From NCBI GenBank assembly GCA_020249045.1, contig JADCGK010000161.1:1-39803 (forward strand): 39,803 nt of DNA. Direction: 5' to 3'. The position numbers and the translations under genes are program-made. Shown one piece after another: positions 4,642 to 37,682 of this stretch (positions are counted from its first letter, which is position 1; each line of letters begins with the position of its first letter). The DNA comes from Azospirillum sp. GTDB lineage: Bacteria; Pseudomonadota; Alphaproteobacteria; CACIAM-22H2. The notes beneath the pieces were generated by a model that worked only from the letters and a program-made list of their open reading frames with translations, had not been told where the DNA came from and searched no databases.

Positions 4642-4670
4642 TTGACGCGCGCCGGGCGCATTGGCATATT
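4642..4670 (+). promoter_or_regulatory. Promoter of the Exo/RecT operon
   Basis: TTGACG (4642-4647), 17-bp spacer, CATATT (4665-4670), placed about 30 bp before the ATG of the exonuclease gene. It lies in the first real gap after a long run of overlapping genes. The -10 hexamer lies inside the operator-like palindrome at 4661-4675. Confidence 0.65.
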
Positions 4671-4675
4671 CCCAA
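4661..4675. promoter_or_regulatory. Operator-like palindrome over the Exo/RecT -10 box
   Basis: TTGGCATATTCCCAA, 11 of 12 arm bases matching TTGGGA...TCCCAA. The -10 hexamer CATATT is positions 5-10 of the palindrome, so binding would block RNA polymerase. An additional half-site (AATCCCAA) lies at 4626-4633. Confidence 0.7.
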
Positions 4676-4702
4676 CGTCAAGCAACGGGAGACACCCACG
4701 AC

Positions 4703-5641
4703 ATGCCCAAGATCATCAACCCCGAGAACCGCGACCACTGGCTGGCCCTGCGCATGGAGGACGTCACCTCTACGCAGTCCGCCGCGCTGTTCGGCCTCAG
4801 CCCCTACGCCACCGAGTTCGAGCTTTACCAGCAGAAGGTCGGCGCGCTCAGCGACGAGATCGAGCCGAACGAGCGCATGACCTGGGGCATCCGTCTGCAG
4901 GACGCCATCGCGCTCGGCGTCGCCCAGGACAACAACCTGCGCATCCGGCGCATCAAGACCTACTGGCGCCACGACGACGCCACCCTGCGCATGGGCTCGT
5001 CGTTCGATTTCGAGATCATCGACCACCCGGACGGGCCCGGCATCATGGAGGTCAAGAACGTCGATTACCTCGTCTATCAGCGCGAGTGGCTGGACGACGA
5101 GGCGCCGCCGCACATCGAGGTCCAGGTCCAGCACCAGCTCGAAGTCGCCAATCGCGAGTGGGCTCTGATCGTCGTGCTCGTCGCCGGCAACACGCCCAAG
5201 GTGATCCGCGTGCCGCGCGACCGCGAGATGGGTGCAAAAATCCGCGACGCGATCCGCGCGTTCTGGGCCCGCGTGGACGCCAAGCAGCCGCCCAAGCCGG
5301 ACTATGCCAAGGACGGCGAGGCGATCCGCTCGCTGTATCGCGACGGCAAGGGCGCGCCGTTCATGGCGCACGGCAACAACTATCTGCAGGCGCTCGTGCA
5401 GACCTACGCCGCCGCCCAGCGCGAGGAAAAGGACGCCGCCGCCCGCAAGGAAGCCGCGCGCGCCGAGATCGTCACGATGATCGGCAACGCCTCGAAGGTG
5501 CTTGGCGATGGCTGGTCGATCTCGTGCTCGGAGACGAAGGACAGCCCCGGCACGCTCGTCACGCCGGACATGGTGGGCCAGACGATCGGCGCCCGCAAGG
5601 GCTACCGCCAGTTCCGCCTGACCATGAAGGAGGTGGCGTAA
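4703..5641 (+). CDS. YqaJ/lambda-Exo family recombination exonuclease
   Basis: 312 residues; ATG 4703 is chosen over an upstream TTG (4661) because the latter lies in the promoter. Core features of the PD-(D/E)xK exonuclease fold: conserved TSTQSAALFGLSPY near residues 22-35, the metal-binding Asp in GSSFDFE (Asp102), and EVK (116-118), followed by HIEVQVQHQLEV (137-148). The family digests one strand of double-stranded ends to give 3' single-stranded tails for a partner annealing protein, which is encoded two genes downstream (RecT). Confidence 0.93.
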   Translation: MPKIINPENRDHWLALRMEDVTSTQSAALFGLSPYATEFELYQQKVGALSDEIEPNERMTWGIRLQDAIALGVAQDNNLRIRRIKTYWRHDDATLRMGSSFDFEIIDHPDGPGIMEVKNVDYLVYQREWLDDEAPPHIEVQVQHQLEVANREWALIVVLVAGNTPKVIRVPRDREMGAKIRDAIRAFWARVDAKQPPKPDYAKDGEAIRSLYRDGKGAPFMAHGNNYLQALVQTYAAAQREEKDAAARKEAARAEIVTMIGNASKVLGDGWSISCSETKDSPGTLVTPDMVGQTIGARKGYRQFRLTMKEVA

Positions 5642-5853: not shown

Positions 5854-6777
5854 ATGGCCGACGCCACCAACGCCCCCGCCCCGCAGTCCCGCGCGCTCGC
5901 ACCGATCGACGTGCTGCGCGACGGGCTCACGAAGATGCAGCCCCAGTTCGCCGCCGCGCTTCCGGCGCACATCCCGCCCGAGAAATTCGTGCGGACCGTC
6001 ATGACCGCGCTGCAGGTCAACCCCGGAATCGTCGAGTGCAGCCGCCCCTCGATCTACGCCGCCTGCATGAAGGCCGCGCAGGACGGGCTCGTGCTCGACG
6101 GCCGCGAGGCCGCGCTGGTCAAGTTCGGCAGCGAAGCGCAGTACATGAAGATGGTTGCGGGCATCCTAAAACAAGCCCGCAACAGCGGCGATATTTCGAC
6201 GCTCAACGCGCACGTTGTCTATGAGCGCGATACCTTCTCGTACACGCTCGGCGACGACGAGAAGATCGAACACAAGCCCCATCTTGGCGAGGATCGCGGC
6301 AAGCCCGTGCTGGTCTATGCCGTCGCGCGCCTCAAGGACGGCGGCGTACAGCGCGCGGTGATGACCGTCGCCGAGGTTGAGAAGGTCCGCGCCGTCAGCC
6401 GCGCCAAGGGCGCCGGGCCGTGGACGCAATGGTGGGACGAAATGGCTAAGAAAACCGTCATCCGGCGCCTCGCAAAGTACCTGCCGTCGAGCACCGACCG
6501 CGACGGCTTCGACGAGGTGGTGCGCCGCGACGACGACCTCTACGACGTGGACGCCGCCGCACCCCAGTCCCCGGCCCCCGCCGCCCCGGCCGAGCCCGAG
6601 CCCCGCAAGCGCCGCACCCGCGCGTCGCAGGTGATCGAGGGCACGGCCGTCCAGACGCCCGCCCCGGCCGCCGCGCCGCAGACCGCGCCGCAGGCCGAGG
6701 ACTTCGACGATATCCCCGAGAGCCTGCGCCGTGCGCCCGCGCCCGCCGGCGCTCCCACGGGCGAGGATCTGATCTAG
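5854..6777 (+). CDS. recT: RecT-type single-strand annealing protein
   Basis: 307 residues. The N-terminal two-thirds carries the RecT signature: LPAHIPPEKFVRTV, NPGIVECSRPSIYAACMKAAQDGLVLDG, and GILKQARNSGDI with VVYERDTFSY; WTQWWDEMAKKTVIRRLAKYLP follows around residues 190-210. The C-terminal 80 residues are a low-complexity Pro/Ala/Glu tail, common in RecT proteins. RecT anneals complementary single strands exposed by the upstream exonuclease. A start codon follows 6 bp after the previous stop. Confidence 0.95.
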   Translation: MADATNAPAPQSRALAPIDVLRDGLTKMQPQFAAALPAHIPPEKFVRTVMTALQVNPGIVECSRPSIYAACMKAAQDGLVLDGREAALVKFGSEAQYMKMVAGILKQARNSGDISTLNAHVVYERDTFSYTLGDDEKIEHKPHLGEDRGKPVLVYAVARLKDGGVQRAVMTVAEVEKVRAVSRAKGAGPWTQWWDEMAKKTVIRRLAKYLPSSTDRDGFDEVVRRDDDLYDVDAAAPQSPAPAAPAEPEPRKRRTRASQVIEGTAVQTPAPAAAPQTAPQAEDFDDIPESLRRAPAPAGAPTGEDLI

Positions 6778-6912: not shown

Positions 6913-7260
6913 ATGAACCCCGACCACATCACCGCAGGCAAGCGGTTCCGCCGCCGCGTCGCCAAGGAAATGCGGCGCGCCTTCAAACAGATTCGCCGTG
7001 ACTGCGCATTTGTGTGGCGCAGCGGAAAGGTGCCGCCGCCGCCCTATAGCCGCTGCCCGCAGCCCCAGTTCGTAATTGGCGACGTTGCGTATAGCGCCGA
7101 CATGACCGCCGACGAACTGCGCGGGTTCCTGTTCGGCACGCGCGATTTAGACGTTCATAGAATGGGCAAGCTCGCGTGGACGCTGGGCCTGAAATTCAAG
7201 CACGAGTTTTTCGTCGAGGCCGACGCCGCGTCGCCCGATGAGTCGAGGCTGGCGTCATGA
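6913..7260 (+). CDS. Hypothetical protein
   Basis: 115 residues; the stop overlaps the next gene by ATGA. The first 35 residues are strongly basic, then a short proline run (VPPPPYS), a beta-rich middle and an acidic C-terminus. No family recognised; it sits between the recombination genes and the integration genes. Confidence 0.7.
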   Translation: MNPDHITAGKRFRRRVAKEMRRAFKQIRRDCAFVWRSGKVPPPPYSRCPQPQFVIGDVAYSADMTADELRGFLFGTRDLDVHRMGKLAWTLGLKFKHEFFVEADAASPDESRLAS

Positions 7261-7529
7261 CCCCCGCCGGCATGCGCATCAACGAGGCCGCGGCTTACCT
7301 CGGCATCAGCCGCAACACGCTCAAACGGCACGGCCCCAAGCCCGTCCGCCTCGGGCCGCGCACCGTCGTCTGGACGCGGGCTAGCCTCGATGCTTGGCTT
7401 GCATCCAAGTCCGCCACCACCGCGCGCGCCGACGCCGACGCCGCCACGGAGATCGCCGTCAATGCCATCCGACAAGAACGAGCCCAGGGACAAAACCGTC
7501 AGGCGCCGCCTAAGCGACGGCACCGTTAA
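7257..7529 (+). CDS. AlpA/excisionase-like helix-turn-helix protein
   Basis: 90 residues. RINEAAAYLGISRNTLKRHGPKPVRLGPRTVVWTRASLDAWL (residues 7-50) has the layout of the winged-HTH of AlpA and excisionase proteins: helix-turn-helix, a basic wing and a W/DAWL terminal helix. Such proteins usually bend attachment-site DNA or activate int/xis expression. The gene overlaps the integrase by 68 bp, supporting a directionality-factor role, though a transcription regulator is equally possible. Confidence 0.8.
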   Translation: MTPAGMRINEAAAYLGISRNTLKRHGPKPVRLGPRTVVWTRASLDAWLASKSATTARADADAATEIAVNAIRQERAQGQNRQAPPKRRHR

Positions 7530-8385
7530 AACGTACACCTACGCCCGCCGGCCGGCCGCGAACGTCTGGACGGTGGGCAAGGTGATCGTCGCCTACAAGC
7601 GCAGCCCGGCGTTCACCAAGCTCGCCCCCGGCACGCGCCGCCAGTACGACGGCCTGCTCCGCCTGCTTGAGCCCTTGGCCGACGTGCCGATCGCCGACGT
7701 GAAGCGCCGTCACGTCCGCGCGATCCGCGACGAGCTCGCCGACACGCCGGGCAAGGCCAACAATTTCGTGCGCACGGCGCGCGCGCTCATGGCGTTCGCC
7801 CTTGAGGACGACCTGATCGACTTCAATCCCCTGCTCCGCATGAAGGCCCTGCCCGGCGGCGAGCACCAGTTCTGGGAGGACCACCACGTCGCGGCCCTCG
7901 ACGCCCTGCCCGAGCGGTTCCGGCGCGCCGCAGTCCTCGCCCTCTACACCGGCCAGCGCGCCAGCGATACCGTGCGCATGACCTGGACCGACTACGACGG
8001 CGAGGGGGTCCGCGTCGTGCAGGAGAAAACCGGCGCCCGCCTTTGGATTCCCTGCCACAGCGCGCTCCGGGCCGAACTCAGCGCGTGGCCGCGCGAAGCC
8101 GTCACCATGCTCACGACGCTCGACGGCCGCCCGTGGACGAGCGCCGCCTCGTTCTGCTCGTCGTTCTCGCTCGCCGTCCGCGACGTGCCCGCACTCGCCG
8201 GCTGCGTCTACCACGGCCTGCGCAAGACGGCCGCCGCGCGCCTCGCCGAGGCCGGGTGCTCGACGCACGAAATCATGGCGATCACGGGCCACGCCTCGAT
8301 TGCCATGGTGCAGCACTACACGAAAAGCGCGAACCAGAAGCACCGCGCGCGCGCCGCCATCGTGAGATTGGAGGGTAAGCGATGA
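7462..8385 (+). CDS. int: Tyrosine-family phage integrase
   Basis: 307 residues, ATG 7462 within the end of the HTH gene. N-terminal arm-binding segment contains a DGTVKTY motif (19-25), then a core-binding helical region (40-130) and the catalytic domain. Catalytic residues: Arg166 (YTGQRASD), Lys189, His251/Arg254 (HGLRKT), His277 (TGHAS) and the nucleophile Tyr286 (QHYTK). All are intact, so site-specific integration and a temperate lifestyle are expected. No attachment site or tRNA-like sequence could be identified nearby. Confidence 0.94.
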   Translation: MPSDKNEPRDKTVRRRLSDGTVKTYTYARRPAANVWTVGKVIVAYKRSPAFTKLAPGTRRQYDGLLRLLEPLADVPIADVKRRHVRAIRDELADTPGKANNFVRTARALMAFALEDDLIDFNPLLRMKALPGGEHQFWEDHHVAALDALPERFRRAAVLALYTGQRASDTVRMTWTDYDGEGVRVVQEKTGARLWIPCHSALRAELSAWPREAVTMLTTLDGRPWTSAASFCSSFSLAVRDVPALAGCVYHGLRKTAAARLAEAGCSTHEIMAITGHASIAMVQHYTKSANQKHRARAAIVRLEGKR

Positions 8386-8546
8386 CCGACGACACCGATC
8401 AGGACTGGTACGCCCGCTATCGGCGGGAGGTAGAAGCCGCGCATTGGCAGCGCAAATTCAGTGAGCTGGTGGCGGAAATCCAGTTCAAACACGGCCCCAT
8501 AGACCCGCGCGCCAGCGTCTTTTTGGCGCCACCCTGGACCACCTGA
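8382..8546 (+). CDS. 54-residue hypothetical protein
   Basis: ATGA overlap with the integrase stop; ends at TGA 8544-8546. The product is charged (MTDDTDQDWYARYRREVEAAHWQRK...) and ends in a hydrophobic/proline tail. Unknown function; downstream position suggests co-expression with int. Confidence 0.6.
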   Translation: MTDDTDQDWYARYRREVEAAHWQRKFSELVAEIQFKHGPIDPRASVFLAPPWTT

Positions 8547-8549
8547 CCC

Positions 8550-8741
8550 ATGCGCAACGCGCTCGACGCCGACCGGGTGTTCCGCCTCGCGCGGCAGGGG
8601 TTGAACGGCCAGCAGATCGCCGACCGCTTGGGCGTCCGGCGCGCGGCTGTCTACAGCCTGCTCAGGCGCCACGGCACGACGATCGAGGAAGTGCGGGCAG
8701 AAGCCGATCAATCCACGTCGCGAGCGGAGACGCGCTTGTAA
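8550..8741 (+). CDS. Small HTH protein (resolvase-type DNA-binding domain)
   Basis: 63 residues; residues 8-45 (VFRLARQGLNGQQIADRLGV then AAVYSLLRRHG) form a helix-turn-helix like the C-terminal DNA-binding domain of resolvases and small phage regulators. Last gene of the rightward operon; its end overlaps the end of the convergent GIY-YIG gene by 34 bp. It is one of two candidates in the window for the protein that binds the 15-bp palindromes. Confidence 0.7.
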   Translation: MRNALDADRVFRLARQGLNGQQIADRLGVRRAAVYSLLRRHGTTIEEVRAEADQSTSRAETRL

Positions 8742-9133
8742 TGGTACGTTTTCACCGTTCCGTCCGCCAGCATGCGCCGCACGACCTTCGCGCTCGTCGG
8801 CACGACCCTTGCGGCAAAGCCCTTGTATTGAACGAACGGCAGGGATTCCTTGCCAAAGAACTGCAGGATGATCCGGCGCGTTTCCTCGCCGTCCCGATAC
8901 CACTCGCCTTTAAGGTGATGGGCAGACAGCAAGCTTTGCAGATCCATTTCCCGCGAGAGATCACCGGGCTCGCGATGGACCACAAATATCTTGAACGGAT
9001 TGGCGTTGTCGATTTGCTTCCAGCGGTCCGACACAACCTTAGCCGTGCCGATTTTTATTGGCCCGACCTCAGCCTGCATGACATACACGTTGGTCGGGTC
9101 TTGATCGCTACGCGGGCCACCTTCTCTTTTCAT
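8708..9133 (-). CDS. GIY-YIG-like (T5orf172/MUG113) protein
   Basis: 141 residues. Residues 15-95 match the T5orf172/MUG113 subgroup of GIY-YIG nucleases: YVMQ...GPIKIGTA, Arg37-Trp in SDRW, a LHxxF-like region replaced by LLSAHHLKGEWYRDGEE. The C-terminal tail carries KVVRRMLADGTVKTYHYKR (116-134), which closely resembles residues 11-29 of the integrase. Transcribed leftward, opposite to the early operon, with its own control region (9134-9317). Nuclease activity is inferred only from the fold. Confidence 0.8.
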   Translation of the reverse strand: MKREGGPRSDQDPTNVYVMQAEVGPIKIGTAKVVSDRWKQIDNANPFKIFVVHREPGDLSREMDLQSLLSAHHLKGEWYRDGEETRRIILQFFGKESLPFVQYKGFAARVVPTSAKVVRRMLADGTVKTYHYKRVSARDVD

Positions 9134-9180: not shown

Positions 9181-9240
9181 TTCACACGGAAGGAAAACGC
9201 GAAGAAAACGCGGCGAAACGCGCGCCTATGTTACTGTATA

Positions 9241-13595: not shown

Positions 13596-16500
13596 TTACC
13601 GGAACTTATTGGGGTCGCGGGTGACGAACATCTCGAACGGGGTGATATCGTACCCCTCGGCCCACAGATAGATGCCCTCGGCCGTGATCCAGGCTTGGCC
13701 CGTGGGCAGGTGCAGCACCGGCCCGGCCGCGCGGAAAGCCGCCTTGGCCAGCCCGCGATCCGCCTCGCCCTGCCCGATTTCCTTGCCCAGCGTGACCACG
13801 GCCTCGACCGCGCTCCCGACCGGCGAGCCCGCATAGCCGAAATTCGTGCCCAGCGCGTTCACCACGTCGCGCACGCCCACGAAGCCAGACAGCGCATATT
13901 TGAGCGTCATGCCCGCCATCCACTTCGCCCAGCCCGCCTCGTCGTCCTCGCCCTCCTCGGGCCCGCGCCCCATCAGCAATTCCGACAGCACGGCCGGCAG
14001 GAACGTCAGGAACGCCATGTTCGCGACGAAGCGCGGCATGTCGGTCGGCCGCTTGAGTTGCTTCATCTCGTCGACCATCAGGTTGTAGGTCGCCGAGAAA
14101 TACGAATAGAACATCGTGAACATCTTCTGCGTCGGCCCGCCGCGCTGGATGCCCGCGAGATCCTTCATCAGCCCCGAGGATTGCGTCGTGCGCACCATCT
14201 GGTCGGCGTAGTCGATCGCCTGCGCCTCGTCGCCCTTGAACTTCTCCATGCCCCGCTCATAGGCGGCCGACCACACGGGCACGGCAACGCCCATGTCCAT
14301 CATGGCCGTCAGGTAGAAGAAGGACCGCTTGACCTGGGCCGAGGTGTCGTTGCCCTCGATCTTGCGCATCTCGTCGCGGATATCGCGGTCGTAGGTGTTC
14401 GCGCGCGTGCGCAGTTCAACGGACTTCGAAAACGCCCAGTCGACCTTGGCCTTCATGGCGAACGGGTTGCCGTAGAACGAGCCGACGTGCTTGACCATCG
14501 GCCCGACGCCCACGCGCGGCACCGACTGCAGGAAGCCCGTGACCTGCACCAGCGCCGTCGTGAGTTTCCAGCCCATCGCCGCGATCGACATGCCGCCGCG
14601 CAGGTGGTTGATCGTCTTGTCCATCCAGTTCAGCGCGGGAACGTCGCCGGCCGCGATATCGCGGACCTGCTGTTTCATCGCCCGGTGGAACTGCGGCCCA
14701 GCCGTGTTGAGCACGGCGCCCTTGACCTCGGGGTGGTCGAGCAGCCGGTTCACGTCCAGCACCGCCTCGCGATGGCTGACATCGTGGATCAGTTCGGCGA
14801 CGTGCTCGAACAGCACGTCCATTTCGAGCCGGACCGGCATGCCGCCAGAACCGACGCGCTCGATCGCGGCGCCGGCGCGCGTGCTCGCCTTCGCGACGAA
14901 CCCGCTCATGAGCTGCTGGGCCATCTTGTCGACCGAGTGCGAATAGGCGCGCTCGCTCCGGTCCGCGTCGTATTTCAGCGGATAGTAGCCGCCGCGCAGC
15001 GTGCCAAACGGGGTGACAACCGGCGACGCCTCGACTTTCTGGGGCTCGACGCCCTTGACCCGCTTTTCCAGCCCGGCCAGTTGCGGCCAGAAGGAATCGA
15101 CGTAATCCCAAGCCTCTTGCACGAACTGCCAGTCGCGCTCCGTCAGCGTGCGGTCGAGCACCGCTTTCACCTGGGCGTCGTCCCACTTGTAGCCCTTACG
15201 GATTGCCTCGCGGTTGCCCTCGTTGCCCCAGTTCAAGGCCAGCGCCATAACGGTCGACTTCGTGAGCGACTGCCCGAGTTCGGGGTAATAGACCGGCTTC
15301 GTGCGCCACGTCTTGCGGGCGTCCTCGGGGAACCGCTCGAACAGCTTGCCCATCGCTTCGTGGGCTTCCAGAGACATGCGCGTCTCGACGTTCTGGGCGT
15401 CCTGCAGCGGCTTGAACAACGCCGTCCAGACCGGCCCAAGGTCGACGAACCCGTCCATTTCGCGGGCGAGGAATTCGAGCTTGCGATGCGAGGCAAAGAA
15501 CCCGTCGACAAACTGGCGCGCGCGATAGCCCGGCCCTTTCTCGATCTGGTCCTTGTCCCCGCGCTCCTTCATGTTCTGGCTGATCGTCTCGCCGACGAGC
15601 GCCGCCACGCGGTTCAGGTCGCGCTCTTTCGCCTCGCGCAGCAGCCGGTTCTTGTTCCGGCCCACGGCGACAAGGTTCTCGACGCTATCGCGCAGGCCCA
15701 TGAACTCGCCGACCTTCATGTCGCGATAGTGCGTCTTTTCGTCGGCCGCCAGAATTTCCGGCGGCACCTCGAGTTGCGCCTGCTGGTTTTCGTCGAGCGC
15801 CTTGATCCAGTTGTTGATCGCCCGCAGTTCGAGGATCGTGCGCTTGCGGTCCGACAGTTGCGGCCCGAACTGGTAGGCGTCGAGGATCGTGCGCACCTGC
15901 TGCAGATAGTCCGCGTCGATCGACTTCGGCGCCTTGCGGCCCGCGTACTTCGTGAACCGCTCGATGGCCTTTTCGACTTCGGCCCGGACCTTGCCCGACT
16001 CCCGCACGAGATAGGCGTTGATGATCCGCTGGCGTTGATGCCACGCCGCCGCCGCATAGTCGCGCGCCGCGATCGCGTCGGCCACCGCGTCGGCCGCGGC
16101 CTTTTCGGCCCGTCGCCATTTATTCGTGTTCAGCAAATCGCCGACCGTGGCGTCGGCCACGATCTGCTCGGACGCCTTTTCGAGCGCCTTGCGATCCACC
16201 CTCAGCGCGTCGACGGCGATCTTGCGCGCCTTGGCCTGGTCGCGCCGCGCGGCCTTGGCCTCGCCCGCCTTCGCGTCCGTCGCCAGACGTTCCGTCGCCA
16301 CCTGCGCCCGCGAGCGCGCATCGGCCCCCTCGCCCATGCGCAGCGCCTCGGATTCCTGCTGATCGACGCGCGCGGCCTGCACGTCGCCCACGGACGGCGC
16401 CGCCTTGCCCTCCATCTCCCGGCGCACCGCCGCCTCGACCATCTTGCCCGCGCCGAGTTTCTTGAGCGCCCGGAACTCGGCTTCGAGCACCAGCATTTGC

Positions 16501-19500
16501 GCGTCGCCGTGCAGCGCCTGGATTGCCTCCTCGTGCGCGGTCCCGTCCTTGGTCGGGTCGGGGAACCGCTCGCGCATGATCCGGTCGGTGCGCGCCTGCA
16601 CCTCGGCGTTGAACGGCGCGGCGTTCAGCATGGCCTGCACCATCTCGTCGGCCGACGTGAACCCGAACATGGGCGCCACCAGATCGGCCGGCACGCCGCC
16701 CTTGACCGTCACGTTGCGCGGCAGGCGCTTCACTACGCCCTCGCCATAGGCTTCCTTGAGCAGCTTGCGGTCGAGCTTGTAGGACCGCCCCGCCGACTTG
16801 CCGTCCGGCAGCGTGCCGTCCTGCATGAGCCGGATGGCCGCATAGACGGGCTCGGCCCGCATCTGAGCCTCGACCTCGTTCGCCACGCCCTCGCGCGCCT
16901 CGCGGTACTCGTCGGAATCCACGCGCGCGGCTTCGCGCTGCAGGCGCGCCAGCACCTTCTGCTCGGCTTCCATGCGCGCCTTGGCGGCTAGGTTCTGGTA
17001 GCGCTCGAATTCCTGGTCGGTCATGCCGGCGTCCTTGGCCGCGCGGAACATGCCGACGAATTTGTATTGCTCTTGAGCCTGGGCGATTTCGGCGTCGGTC
17101 GCGAGCATGCGGTCGAACACGCCCCGGATATCGTCGTTGATCGGCACGTTCAGGTCGCGGATCGACCGATAGATGCGCACCAGCCACGCCTTGAAGCGCT
17201 CGAACGCCGACGCCAGTTCGAGGCTCGGCGCCTTGCCTTCCATGAAATACGCCTCGCCCGTGCGCGCAAAACGCTCGTGCGCCTCGACGGGGATCTCCGC
17301 CACCTCGGGGTCGATTTCCAGATAGCGCGCGATGCGCTCCCAGTCCGCGCGGATATCGGCCGGCGCATCGGTGCGCGCGGCGTCGGCCTTCATTTCCTCA
17401 AGCCAGCCGTGGCTCATTTCGTGGAGGAACGTCGAAAGGTCCGCCTTGCCCGTGAGCGTGATGATCGACCGCCCGCCCGGCAGGAACTGAATCGAGCCGC
17501 GCGGCGTGTCGCCCTCGCGTTGCTCAAGCGCTTTGCCGTCCGCCGGCTGGTTAAGCAGCCGCTCAAATTCAGGACGCAGCGAAAACTCGCCATCCGGCGT
17601 CGGATAGGCGTCCTCGCGAACGTCGAACACTTCCGAGATAACCGGCGCGCCCTTCGTCTTGCTGTAGCCGACGACGCTATCGTATCCAGCGCCTCGCACA
17701 GCAAACGCCACGATGTTCTCCTGCACGGCATACGGCAGTAAATTGCCGCCCTTGGAATTCTGGACGATCTGCCAAGCCAAGTCGGGGTCGGCGCCGTACT
17801 GCTGCAGCACCTCGGTCACCCCCTCGACGATTTGCGCTTCGCCCTTGCCCCAGCCCACCGCCACGCGCAGCACGTCATTGCGCATCTTCTCGTAGGCGCC
17901 CTTACCTTTAATCTGATCGTATGCGGCCTCGGGCGCCTTCCCGCCGGTCGCGCCTTTGACGAACAGCGGCGCGCGCAGCAGCGTTTCGCCCTGCACCTTT
18001 TCCGTGCCGCCATAGCCCGTCTTGCCGGTCTTGTAATGCTTGGCCGTTGCCGCGCCGTTTGGCAGATAAAACACGCCGGTTCGCACCGACTGATCGCCGC
18101 TTTGCTCGGGCTTTTGGAACCGCACCAGGTCGATCAGCAGCCCGTCCGGCGTGATCGAGGCGCCCGGCGTATTCGCAACAGCCTCAGCAAACAGGGGATC
18201 GGTCGGCAGGCTCACCGGATAGGCCATGCGCTTCACAACGTCGACCGGCACTTGATCCATGATCGTCCGCTTGCGCTCGGCCGGCATGCCGACCTGTTCG
18301 GCCGCCCAGCGTTCGTGCGCCTCGCGCACCTCGGCCGCCGTCACGCGGTTCGGGTCCAGCCCCAGCACGGACAGTTGCTCGTCGAGCGTAGCGCGCGCTT
18401 CTAGCCGCCGGGCCCGCGTCTCGTCGCGGTTTTGCAACGAATAGACCGGCTTCCCGTCCATTTCCTGCGTAAACAGTTCCATGAACTTGTCAACCAACTG
18501 GTCCGGCGGCACGCTCTCGTCGATGTAGCCCGCGTCCTGCATGCGCTTGGCGACAACATCGACATGGAACCGCGCCGTGAACCCGGTGCCGCCCAACATG
18601 TCGGCGCTCTCGGGGCCCACGTCGCGCACCAGCTTTTTGCGGCCGGGCTTGCTCAGGTGCCACTTATCGGCCTTGAGCGTCTTGAACTCGCCGCCCCGGT
18701 CGACGATGCCTCCGTAGTCGGCCACGGCCTCCAACATCGACGGGCCATACGCCGCGCGGTCGGAAATCCGCACCTTCGAGCGCAGGTCGTCGAGCGCCAG
18801 GTCGAGCATGTCGACGTCCTGCCGCCCTTGCAGTTGGCGCCGGACGGCCGGCCGCTGGTCGAAATACATCTCGACCGGATCGACGCCCAGACGCTCGGCC
18901 CGGGTCCGCACGCGCGCGGCCACGATCGCCGCGTATCGCGTCGCCGCCGCATCGTCGACCGCCGCCGCCTTCAACTGGCGGAACATATCGTCGAACACGA
19001 CTTGCGCCGCGTTCTGCTGGCCGACCGCCGACGCCACGTCGTCGCGCAGCATGTTGACCTGGCGCTCTAATTCCTCGGGCGACCACTCGGCGGCCTCGCG
19101 CGCGGTCGGCGCGTCCTCGGTCACGCGAACGTTTTCGGCCAGCTCGTCGAACCGCTCGTTCCCGACGAAGGCCCCCACGAACGTCGAGAGCGGCATGCGC
19201 ACGTCCGCGCCCGTTTCCTGGGCCAGCGCCACCTCGCGCGTGAGGCGCGCGACTTCCTCGGGCGACATGAACTGCCCCATGTCGGGCTGGTCCTGGAACA
19301 GCACCGCCGCCGTGCGCGCGTCGATCTCGACGGCGCGGTCCTGTTCGACGAGGCCGCGCACGAACTCCGCGAATTTCTCCGGCGAGCGCTGGCGCAGGTT
19401 CGACTGCTCGGCCAGCGCGTTGATCTGCTTGAGCGCGTCCGCGTCGCGCGTCGCCTGGTCCGCCGCCTGCTGGCCGCGCGCCGCCCCCTTGCCGCCCATC

Positions 19501-20576
19501 GCGGCCAGGATCAGCGACCGCACCACGGCCGCAGCGCCGCCGGCGGCCAGCGCCTCGCGGCTGAAATCCTGCACGATCTCGGCGTCGGGGTTGTAGAACG
19601 CATATTCGACGACGTTCTGCAGGATGCCCTCGACGACCTCTTGCGCGGCCTCGTTCCCGGCCGACAGCATCACGTCGCGGATTTTCCCCATGATGCCAGC
19701 CCGCACGGGGTCCGGCAGCTTGCGCATGAGGAAGTCTAGCCCGTAGCGCTCCGTCAGCGCGGTCACGGCGCCGCCCGCAAACAGCGCGGCGTCCGTCGTC
19801 GCATCGCGCCCGTAGACCCCTTGCCGGTCCTGGCGTTCGCGCTGCTGGTCTACGCCCTGCGAAAACAGCATCGTCGTGCCAGCCACGCCGCCCGTCATGA
19901 TCATCATGGCGAGCTGCTGGCCCAACTGCCCGACGCCCTCGGAAATATCCGTCGCGAGGTTCTGCCGTTCCGCCGGCACGCCGACGCCAGCGCCGACATC
20001 CTTCAGGAAATCGCCGCCCTGCATCAGCCCCGTCGCCGGGTTGAACCCGTCGAACCAGAACAGGTTTGCGGCGCTATCGCCAAACAGCGACCGCACGCCC
20101 CGGTCGATCTGGCGCGCGCCGGCGTCGATCGCCGAGCCAAACCCCGCCGCCGCCGAGCCCAGGCCCTTGATAGCGCCCGCAGGCAGCGAGCGCGCCACGT
20201 CGGACACCGCTTGCAGCGTGTCGAAATCGTCGCGCGCCAGCCGGTAGTTTGTCGGGTCCGTCACGAACGCCGCCATGTTCGGATCTTCGGCCACGCGCCC
20301 GAGTCGGTCGAATTCCGCCTTGCGCTCGACCTCGCTCATATTGCGCTCGACCACGGGCACCGGCAGGCCCGTCTGGCGCGACAGGCCCAGCGCGCGCGCC
20401 GTCGTGTCGGGCGTCGAGCCCTGCGCCCCCACGGCCGTCTGGCGCAGCGCCTGCTCGTCGCGCTCGGCGCGCATGCGCTTGGCCTCGGCTTGCAGGTCGA
20501 TCGCCGTGGGCGCCTCGCGCGCGCGGTCCAGTTCCGTCCGCAGCCGCAGCGCCTCGTTCATCAGGGAATCGGTCAT
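13596..20576 (-). CDS. Giant internal virion/ejection protein with HExxH motif
   Basis: 2,326 residues. N-terminal 120 residues are charged helix; 120-400 alternates amphipathic and Gly/Ala-rich hydrophobic segments; a metallopeptidase-type HEMSH motif lies at 1052-1056 (FLHEMSHGW) preceded by a beta region rich in FYLPNG/GGTEKV. Long helical parts (1400-1700) follow, and hydrophobic stretches occur near 1900-2250, including FYSYFSATYN (about 2155), which is like the C-terminus of large polyvalent phage proteins. T7 gp15/gp16 counterparts are ejected into the cell to form the DNA channel. Protease activity is inferred from HExxH alone. Confidence 0.82.
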   Translation of the reverse strand: MTDSLMNEALRLRTELDRAREAPTAIDLQAEAKRMRAERDEQALRQTAVGAQGSTPDTTARALGLSRQTGLPVPVVERNMSEVERKAEFDRLGRVAEDPNMAAFVTDPTNYRLARDDFDTLQAVSDVARSLPAGAIKGLGSAAAGFGSAIDAGARQIDRGVRSLFGDSAANLFWFDGFNPATGLMQGGDFLKDVGAGVGVPAERQNLATDISEGVGQLGQQLAMMIMTGGVAGTTMLFSQGVDQQRERQDRQGVYGRDATTDAALFAGGAVTALTERYGLDFLMRKLPDPVRAGIMGKIRDVMLSAGNEAAQEVVEGILQNVVEYAFYNPDAEIVQDFSREALAAGGAAAVVRSLILAAMGGKGAARGQQAADQATRDADALKQINALAEQSNLRQRSPEKFAEFVRGLVEQDRAVEIDARTAAVLFQDQPDMGQFMSPEEVARLTREVALAQETGADVRMPLSTFVGAFVGNERFDELAENVRVTEDAPTAREAAEWSPEELERQVNMLRDDVASAVGQQNAAQVVFDDMFRQLKAAAVDDAAATRYAAIVAARVRTRAERLGVDPVEMYFDQRPAVRRQLQGRQDVDMLDLALDDLRSKVRISDRAAYGPSMLEAVADYGGIVDRGGEFKTLKADKWHLSKPGRKKLVRDVGPESADMLGGTGFTARFHVDVVAKRMQDAGYIDESVPPDQLVDKFMELFTQEMDGKPVYSLQNRDETRARRLEARATLDEQLSVLGLDPNRVTAAEVREAHERWAAEQVGMPAERKRTIMDQVPVDVVKRMAYPVSLPTDPLFAEAVANTPGASITPDGLLIDLVRFQKPEQSGDQSVRTGVFYLPNGAATAKHYKTGKTGYGGTEKVQGETLLRAPLFVKGATGGKAPEAAYDQIKGKGAYEKMRNDVLRVAVGWGKGEAQIVEGVTEVLQQYGADPDLAWQIVQNSKGGNLLPYAVQENIVAFAVRGAGYDSVVGYSKTKGAPVISEVFDVREDAYPTPDGEFSLRPEFERLLNQPADGKALEQREGDTPRGSIQFLPGGRSIITLTGKADLSTFLHEMSHGWLEEMKADAARTDAPADIRADWERIARYLEIDPEVAEIPVEAHERFARTGEAYFMEGKAPSLELASAFERFKAWLVRIYRSIRDLNVPINDDIRGVFDRMLATDAEIAQAQEQYKFVGMFRAAKDAGMTDQEFERYQNLAAKARMEAEQKVLARLQREAARVDSDEYREAREGVANEVEAQMRAEPVYAAIRLMQDGTLPDGKSAGRSYKLDRKLLKEAYGEGVVKRLPRNVTVKGGVPADLVAPMFGFTSADEMVQAMLNAAPFNAEVQARTDRIMRERFPDPTKDGTAHEEAIQALHGDAQMLVLEAEFRALKKLGAGKMVEAAVRREMEGKAAPSVGDVQAARVDQQESEALRMGEGADARSRAQVATERLATDAKAGEAKAARRDQAKARKIAVDALRVDRKALEKASEQIVADATVGDLLNTNKWRRAEKAAADAVADAIAARDYAAAAWHQRQRIINAYLVRESGKVRAEVEKAIERFTKYAGRKAPKSIDADYLQQVRTILDAYQFGPQLSDRKRTILELRAINNWIKALDENQQAQLEVPPEILAADEKTHYRDMKVGEFMGLRDSVENLVAVGRNKNRLLREAKERDLNRVAALVGETISQNMKERGDKDQIEKGPGYRARQFVDGFFASHRKLEFLAREMDGFVDLGPVWTALFKPLQDAQNVETRMSLEAHEAMGKLFERFPEDARKTWRTKPVYYPELGQSLTKSTVMALALNWGNEGNREAIRKGYKWDDAQVKAVLDRTLTERDWQFVQEAWDYVDSFWPQLAGLEKRVKGVEPQKVEASPVVTPFGTLRGGYYPLKYDADRSERAYSHSVDKMAQQLMSGFVAKASTRAGAAIERVGSGGMPVRLEMDVLFEHVAELIHDVSHREAVLDVNRLLDHPEVKGAVLNTAGPQFHRAMKQQVRDIAAGDVPALNWMDKTINHLRGGMSIAAMGWKLTTALVQVTGFLQSVPRVGVGPMVKHVGSFYGNPFAMKAKVDWAFSKSVELRTRANTYDRDIRDEMRKIEGNDTSAQVKRSFFYLTAMMDMGVAVPVWSAAYERGMEKFKGDEAQAIDYADQMVRTTQSSGLMKDLAGIQRGGPTQKMFTMFYSYFSATYNLMVDEMKQLKRPTDMPRFVANMAFLTFLPAVLSELLMGRGPEEGEDDEAGWAKWMAGMTLKYALSGFVGVRDVVNALGTNFGYAGSPVGSAVEAVVTLGKEIGQGEADRGLAKAAFRAAGPVLHLPTGQAWITAEGIYLWAEGYDITPFEMFVTRDPNKFR

Positions 20577-37225: not shown

Positions 37226-37459
37226 ATGTCGGTCGACTATCTCCCACCCCCGCCCGAGCGCCATCGGTGGACCCTGCACGAGATGCAGGTCGGGGAAATG
37301 CGGTTCTACCCAGACGCCCAAGTCAAGGGCGAAAACCTTCGGAGCGCCGCTCAGACGGCTAAAAAGAAGCACGGCATGCGGTTCAGGATCCGCAAGGCCA
37401 TGCGGGCCAATGGCGTCGACCAACCCGTGACCGGCTTCAATATCTGGCGATTGGAGTAG
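37226..37459 (+). CDS. Early small protein, paralogue of the next gene
   Basis: 77 residues, AAGGA Shine-Dalgarno 12 bp before ATG. Shares with the next protein: Pro-rich start, LHxMxVGExxxY (residues 18-29), an AKxKHG segment and a basic C-terminal half. Probably a small nucleic-acid-associated protein; the family is unknown to me. First gene of the rightward arm. Confidence 0.75.
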   Translation: MSVDYLPPPPERHRWTLHEMQVGEMRFYPDAQVKGENLRSAAQTAKKKHGMRFRIRKAMRANGVDQPVTGFNIWRLE

Positions 37460-37463
37460 AGCC

Positions 37464-37682
37464 ATGACGATTTACACGCCACCCGCGCGCAAGCCCCAGC
37501 CGCTCGACCTGCACACCATGAGGGTCGGCGAGTCTTGGGTCTATTCAAACGTCGACCAGTCGATCCACCGTATTCGCGCCTACATCAGCATCGCCAAGCG
37601 TAAGCACGGCGTGATCGTCGAGATCAAAGAGGAGCCTGGATCGTTCGGCGAAATATTCTATCGCGTCGTGCGCGTGAGATAA
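37464..37682 (+). CDS. Early small protein, paralogue of the previous gene
   Basis: 72 residues, begins 4 bp after the previous stop. LHTMRVGESWVY (17-28) and IAKRKHGVIVEIKEE correspond to LHEMQVGEMRFY and AKKKHGMRFRIRKA of the neighbour. Tandem duplicates in early genes are often targets of host-defence driven divergence; that is inference. Ends just before the promoter with TTGACA at 37686. Confidence 0.75.
   Translation: MTIYTPPARKPQPLDLHTMRVGESWVYSNVDQSIHRIRAYISIAKRKHGVIVEIKEEPGSFGEIFYRVVRVR

Follow-up and report, generated by a model that had tools for sequence, protein, structure and literature searches.

A short module of phage integrase N-termini recurs as the C-terminal tail of nuclease-like proteins encoded beside integrases

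A short protein module that forms the N-terminus of a group of phage tyrosine integrases is shared by small nuclease-like proteins of three unrelated folds, whose genes lie next to integrase genes. The homology of the module, its N-terminal placement in the integrases, its recurrence on three nuclease folds, and the adjacency of the carriers to integrases are direct observations. The explanation that we consider best, and on balance probable, is that an integrase arm-type hairpin has been appended to nuclease-fold proteins as a predicted DNA recognition tail. Modular phage nuclease-like proteins are known; what is new is the integrase-type arm hairpin and its recurrence on three folds at the integrase locus. 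These findings suggest that phages use part of the integration machinery to direct nuclease-like proteins.

The module pair in the window

The window (the whole 39,803-nucleotide stretch of DNA that was analyzed) encodes a tyrosine integrase of 307 amino acids (positions 7462 to 8385, plus strand), identified by matches to Phage_integrase (PF00589; E = 6.5e-16) and to the phrog_1 integrase family (9e-42). The minus strand carries the gene for a 141-amino-acid GIY-YIG-superfamily protein, designated P0002 (8708 to 9133), which matched MUG113 with an E value of 0.0044 and, by tblastn, phage homologues at ~3e-4. Since its scores fall under the curated Pfam cut-offs (18.0 bits versus 22.3 for MUG113 and 14 versus 20 for T5orf172), we call the predicted protein T5orf172/MUG113-like and not a member. 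An alignment of six proteins revealed conservation of Gly76-Glu77-Trp78 together with Tyr17, Lys27-Ile28-Gly29, Arg37, and Glu62, the latter four elements being invariant in all six. Arg37 (codon at 9023 to 9025, minus strand) and Glu62 (8948 to 8950, minus strand) are the predicted catalytic arginine and glutamate, and Gln66 takes the place of the usual His of the LH motif after the Glu. Searches of viral contigs found no close relatives of P0002. The GC content of its gene is 0.57, versus 0.67 for the window and 0.70 for int, a difference that would fit its having arrived later.

A sequence-only reading of this DNA had noticed that integrase residues 11 to 29 (7492 to 7548, plus strand) and P0002 residues 116 to 134 (8732 to 8788, minus strand) are alike at about two-thirds of positions. 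Both stretches lie exactly where that reading had placed them, and the likeness is closer than it had claimed: the integrase sequence KTVRRRLSDGTVKTYTYAR and the P0002 sequence KVVRRMLADGTVKTYHYKR are identical at 14 of 19 positions (74%), including a common DGTVKTY core, and blastp aligned the pair with an E value of 1e-6 (16 of 25 residues identical). The best ungapped segment scored 74, compared with a mean of 28 and a maximum of 52 in 3,000 shuffles (fitted P of ~2e-7). When all 236 open reading frames (ORFs) of the window were compared with one another, the integrase and P0002 formed one of two pairs below an E value of 0.01; at 5e-4, their likeness thus survives correction for having looked everywhere. 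At the DNA level, agreement is limited to 37 of 66 bases, and different codons specify half of the identical residues, indicating that the likeness is old and has been maintained at the protein level. With codons and flanks both diverged, a recent duplication of the module between the two genes was ruled out.

Distribution and predicted structure of the module

Module loci were gathered by pattern scans of viral and genome contigs, and a 24-position profile was then built from the matches. In the host genome (3.87 Mb), this profile, whose 17 rows include both window copies, matched the P0002 C-terminus (residues 115 to 136; 8726 to 8791, minus strand) with an E value of 3.2e-13 and the integrase N-terminus (residues 9 to 31; 7486 to 7554, plus strand) with an E value of 3.9e-11. 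The sole further good match there was the N-terminus of a second integrase, which had been left out of the profile (1e-6).

Most occurrences of the module are at the N-terminus of tyrosine integrases, which form a broad group; 44 nonredundant loci were collected and, where the organism is named, belong mostly to alphaproteobacterial phages and prophages. Module matches are well separated from noise, with E values of 1e-10 to 1e-13, and few genomes have the module: in a sample of 385 genomes from the class, it occurred in at least 3 or 4. Since it is rare and specific, a widespread low-complexity motif was rejected as an explanation. The outcome that would speak against a common DNA-binding arm, a motif widespread in unrelated proteins with no DNA-related role, was looked for with the profile and did not appear. 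Pattern matches in ribonucleotide reductases (L010, L011, L013, L015, L016, L018, and L019) and at four other loci (L024, L034, L070, and L074) were unsupported by the profile or weak. A serine recombinase (L033, 552 to 2585, minus strand) has a zinc-ribbon segment that matches the profile at 6e-6, a likeness that is probably convergent.

In an alignment of 28 integrases, only ten columns are invariant; these include R18, G23, Y28, and Y30 of the module along with R209, K232, and R309 of the catalytic domain. The module precedes the core-binding and catalytic domains in all 28, each of which is positive for PF00589. In some members, the core-binding domain follows the module directly. The window integrase lacks the segment of the third strand and helix described below and has the hairpin part alone, so that in this protein the hairpin alone would have to bind; with its module shortened in this way, the label "arm" is extended to it by homology within the family. 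At L003 to L009, related integrases have other N-terminal segments at the module position, as expected of exchangeable arm-binding domains, which suggests that this N-terminal domain is exchanged among these integrases.

Structure prediction, which had been proposed along with the original observation, returned a hairpin in both settings. The model of a long-form integrase (L039; mean pLDDT of 89) has strands at residues 13 to 19 and 25 to 31, joined by the D-G turn, then a short third strand at 37 and 38 and a helix at 45 to 57, all ahead of the core-binding domain; block pLDDT values are 94 to 96 over residues 11 to 50 and 85 over residues 51 to 60. Arm-binding domains of tyrosine recombinases consist of three strands and a helix (PMC8138268). 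In this confident model, the module is accordingly predicted to be the β1-β2 hairpin of a β-β-β-α N-terminal domain with arm-binding topology. The P0002 tail was likewise modeled as a hairpin (strands at 116 to 121 and 127 to 132), with a mean pLDDT of 97 over residues 121 to 130, a confidence derived from an alignment that is deep only over the tail; the nuclease domain was modeled with low confidence (mean pLDDT of 55).

Comparison of the module with the lambda Int N-terminal domain by hhalign was not significant (P = 0.063), and none of the Pfam arm-binding models, nor any other Pfam model, matches the module. The arm-binding assignment therefore rests on position and topology. Among solved structures, sequence searches returned no module match except short DGTV repeats in designed proteins, and tblastn of a 26-residue tail against phages and plasmids returned phiKX integrases and noise only. 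The module resembles the arm-binding domain of lambda Int and Tn916 Int (PMC8138268) in being N-terminal, before the core-binding domain, and in having three strands and a helix in the long-form model. It differs from the lambda Int domain in that it has no significant sequence link to it, is present as the hairpin only in the window integrase, and also occurs on proteins that are not recombinases.

Module carriers and their place beside integrase genes

Outside integrases, convincing matches to the module were confined to four kinds of protein, all nuclease-like or helix-turn-helix (HTH): P0002; PD-(D/E)XK-like proteins at L032 (2277 to 2876), L026 (523 to 1101), and L130 (8879 to 9439); an HNH protein at L017 (1 to 420; phrog_959, 9e-6); and a GcrA-like HTH protein at L014 and L020. 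In every nuclease-like carrier, the module lies at or near the C-terminus. The PD-(D/E)XK assignment was made by inspection, with no match in Pfam or PHROG; D42 (of GDMW), E55-x-K57, and Q70 are invariant in the three proteins. Their tails hold seven invariant positions, and the linker ahead of the tail hardly aligns. The GcrA-like proteins (L014, 1049 to 2074, minus strand; L020, 5162 to 6010) are nearly identical and match GcrA weakly; in them, the module lies inside the protein, between two predicted DNA-binding segments.

Neighborhood of an integrase was not a search criterion for carriers, and yet each nuclease-type carrier with an integrase on its contig has that integrase next door. In the window, the P0002 gene and int are convergent, with 322 bp between their ends. 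The L032 PD-(D/E)XK-like gene begins 67 bp past the integrase stop codon, and the L017 HNH gene begins 9 bp past it. At L026, an integrase truncated by the contig is followed by the PD-(D/E)XK-like gene, and the gap between them holds the 3′ half of a tRNA-Ser (assigned by inspection) and no complete tRNA, as expected of attP or an att half-site. L130 and L014 are on fragments without an integrase. Under simple assumptions, the probability of such adjacency arising by chance is ~3e-4.

Most module-bearing integrases have no nuclease-like neighbor, and upstream of 43 of them we found no T5orf172-like, PD-(D/E)XK-like, or module-bearing gene. A tRNA 3′ end lies just downstream of many other integrases of this kind, indicating that the slot beside the integrase 3′ end is commonly the attachment site. 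The slot can also hold nuclease genes that have no tail. At L127 (297 to 2027), in a phage that was not selected for its int-att-nuclease order, a module-bearing integrase is followed by a tRNA 3′ half and then by a tailless T5orf172/MUG113 gene (MUG113, 3e-10), and at L151 an int-adjacent HNH gene has no tail. The tail thus looks like an add-on to nucleases resident at int/att.

No tRNA or Rfam match marks attP in the window. The start of the integrase gene is overlapped by a gene for an AlpA/excisionase-like HTH protein, a candidate directionality factor (7257 to 7529, plus strand; HTH_17, 2.8e-6; Phage_AlpA, 1.4e-4; phrog_66 excisionase and transcriptional regulator, 3.8e-7). A small HTH gene (8550 to 8741, plus strand; HTH_23, 2.6e-5; phrog_664, 6.7e-7) overlaps the 3′ end of the P0002 gene with its own 3′ end by 34 bp. 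The intergenic region upstream of the P0002 gene (9134 to 9420) holds two exact GAAAACGCG repeats at 9193 and 9204, 11 bp apart, which were equaled in 37 of 2,000 shuffles. The 9-mer is not enriched across the whole window, and the repeats are weak candidates for operator or arm sites.

Possible roles of the tail

Tails were compared with 41 integrase modules. The similarity of the tail to the module of its own integrase ranked 5th of 41 in the window, 3rd of 41 at L032, and 40th of 41 for the HNH protein, and coevolution of the tail with its own integrase is not supported. The sequence-only reading had proposed a common DNA-binding arm through which the GIY-YIG protein binds the arm sites of the integrase and competes with it. 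The common arm gains support from the position of the module at the arm-binding end of integrases, its high conservation, the modeled hairpin, and its restriction outside integrases to nuclease-like and HTH proteins, mostly beside an integrase; the sharing of sites with the resident integrase finds none in these ranks. Since the tails are not closest to their own modules, direct competition for the sites of the same integrase is just one possibility. The ranks argue against strict co-recognition of those arm sites and are compatible with targets in other phages or with recognition that depends on a few variable positions.

In the explanation that we favor, one subtype of integrase arm-binding domain would have the module as its β-hairpin core, made up of strands 1 and 2. 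In phages of this group, several small nuclease-fold proteins that are unrelated to one another would have received this hairpin at their C-termini, and their genes lie next to the integrase gene and, in the cases where one can be seen, an attachment site. We infer that the tail folds as a hairpin and likely binds DNA; its most likely role would be to guide the attached nuclease-fold domain to phage DNA of the arm type or a related kind. There, the protein might cut, excluding or homing into competing phages with the same kind of int/att region, or it might merely occupy the DNA, modulating integrase and transcription of the int region. Taken further, the cutting alternative would amount to a class of nucleases directed by the integrase arm, with at least three unrelated folds, in which the hairpin reaches int/att DNA and cuts that of competitors in att-targeted exclusion or homing; we regard it as a rather unlikely proposal.

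Instead, P0002 could compete as a regulator: bound to the arm sites of its own integrase, it would leave the DNA uncut and either block integration and excision or bias them. This seems doubtful to us. Its gene does lie beside int, tail and integrase do have the DGTVKTY core in common, and I-TevI is a precedent for a GIY-YIG protein that acts as a repressor with no cleavage site in range (PMC10448857); however, the likeness between tail and own integrase is unexceptional, and very low in the HNH case, and the predicted catalytic Arg37 and Glu62 have been retained, although pure repression does not need them. Much the same low probability attaches to a module that, instead of binding DNA, docks integrases and nuclease-like proteins onto a partner that both use, which might be a host factor, the replisome, or the integrase itself. 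That would fit the almost invariant core (R, L-x-D-G, and Y-x-Y) across integrases with presumably different arm sites, as well as tails that differ from the resident integrase, but the module stands at the arm-binding position with arm-domain topology, and the GcrA-like carrier is predicted, on weak matches, to bind DNA in its own right.

The tail might also be a leftover with no role, left when nuclease genes in the recombination-prone int/att slot gained an old integrase 5′ end by illegitimate recombination. The tailless nuclease genes at the same place (L127, where the gene lies across the tRNA half-site, and L151) and the GC content of the P0002 gene (0.57 versus 0.67 for the phage) speak for such an origin. 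We give it still less credence, since residues have been kept even though half of the codons for identical residues differ, three diverged PD-(D/E)XK proteins preserve the tail and not the linker, and three different folds did likewise. A chance or convergent likeness of short basic hairpins is very improbable: pattern matches in clearly unrelated proteins such as ribonucleotide reductase (L010 and others) and the serine recombinase ribbon (L033) do occur, but the clean separation of the profile E values, together with the significance of the pair after correction for all ORF pairs, largely refutes this reading.

The closest precedent for the predicted arrangement in P0002 is Odn (ICP1 Gp88), a T5orf172 nuclease that has taken on RepA_N, a domain of its target, and cuts at the target protein's sites (PMC8263062). 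Like Odn, P0002 combines a T5orf172-type GIY-YIG-like domain, with conserved predicted catalytic Arg and Glu, and a module homologous to the recognition domain of another mobile-element protein. Given the sequence and profile homology of the module and the conserved nuclease residues, P0002 qualifies as an Odn-like fusion in which DNA recognition by the module is presumed. The two differ in that the domain borrowed by Odn is an N-terminal replication initiator RepA_N domain and that of P0002 a C-terminal integrase-type hairpin of ~22 residues, and in that the target of Odn, shown by experiment, is the origin of a parasite, whereas the homologous integrase of P0002 is in the same phage. A further parallel comes from phage homing endonucleases, whose T5orf172 (CapR or RepA_N) and HNH-AP2 genes encode DNA-binding domains that can be exchanged (PMC10448857). 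As in these, a nuclease domain lies at one end and an exchangeable predicted DNA-binding domain at the other. Unlike theirs, the module has no Pfam model, is common to integrases of the same phage group, and occurs on three unrelated nuclease folds at the integrase locus. AP2 and arm-binding domains both consist of a three-stranded sheet and a helix. A literature search that covered few subscription journals found no paper describing the module on nucleases.

A probable recognition piece of the site-specific recombination machinery thus appears to move between protein families. We predict that nuclease-like proteins beside integrases bind int/att-type DNA through the ~22-residue tail. If proteins of the P0002 type cut, phage-against-phage conflict would have attachment sites among its targets in addition to replication origins; if they bind without cutting, they would be integration modulators of a new kind. 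The profile is also useful as a label for an integrase subtype and for neighbors that otherwise lack annotation.

Three further features of the window were recorded. Two adjacent small, putatively coding ORFs (37226 to 37456 and 37464 to 37679, plus strand) are alike at 32% over 53 residues (E = 1e-5), perhaps reflecting a tandem gene duplication. A 2,326-amino-acid protein (13596 to 20576, minus strand) has three stretches that match phrog_9880, of unknown function. Upstream of the integrase gene, the plus strand encodes a pair consisting of a RecE-like exonuclease (4661 to 5641) and a RecT-like annealing protein (5854 to 6777).
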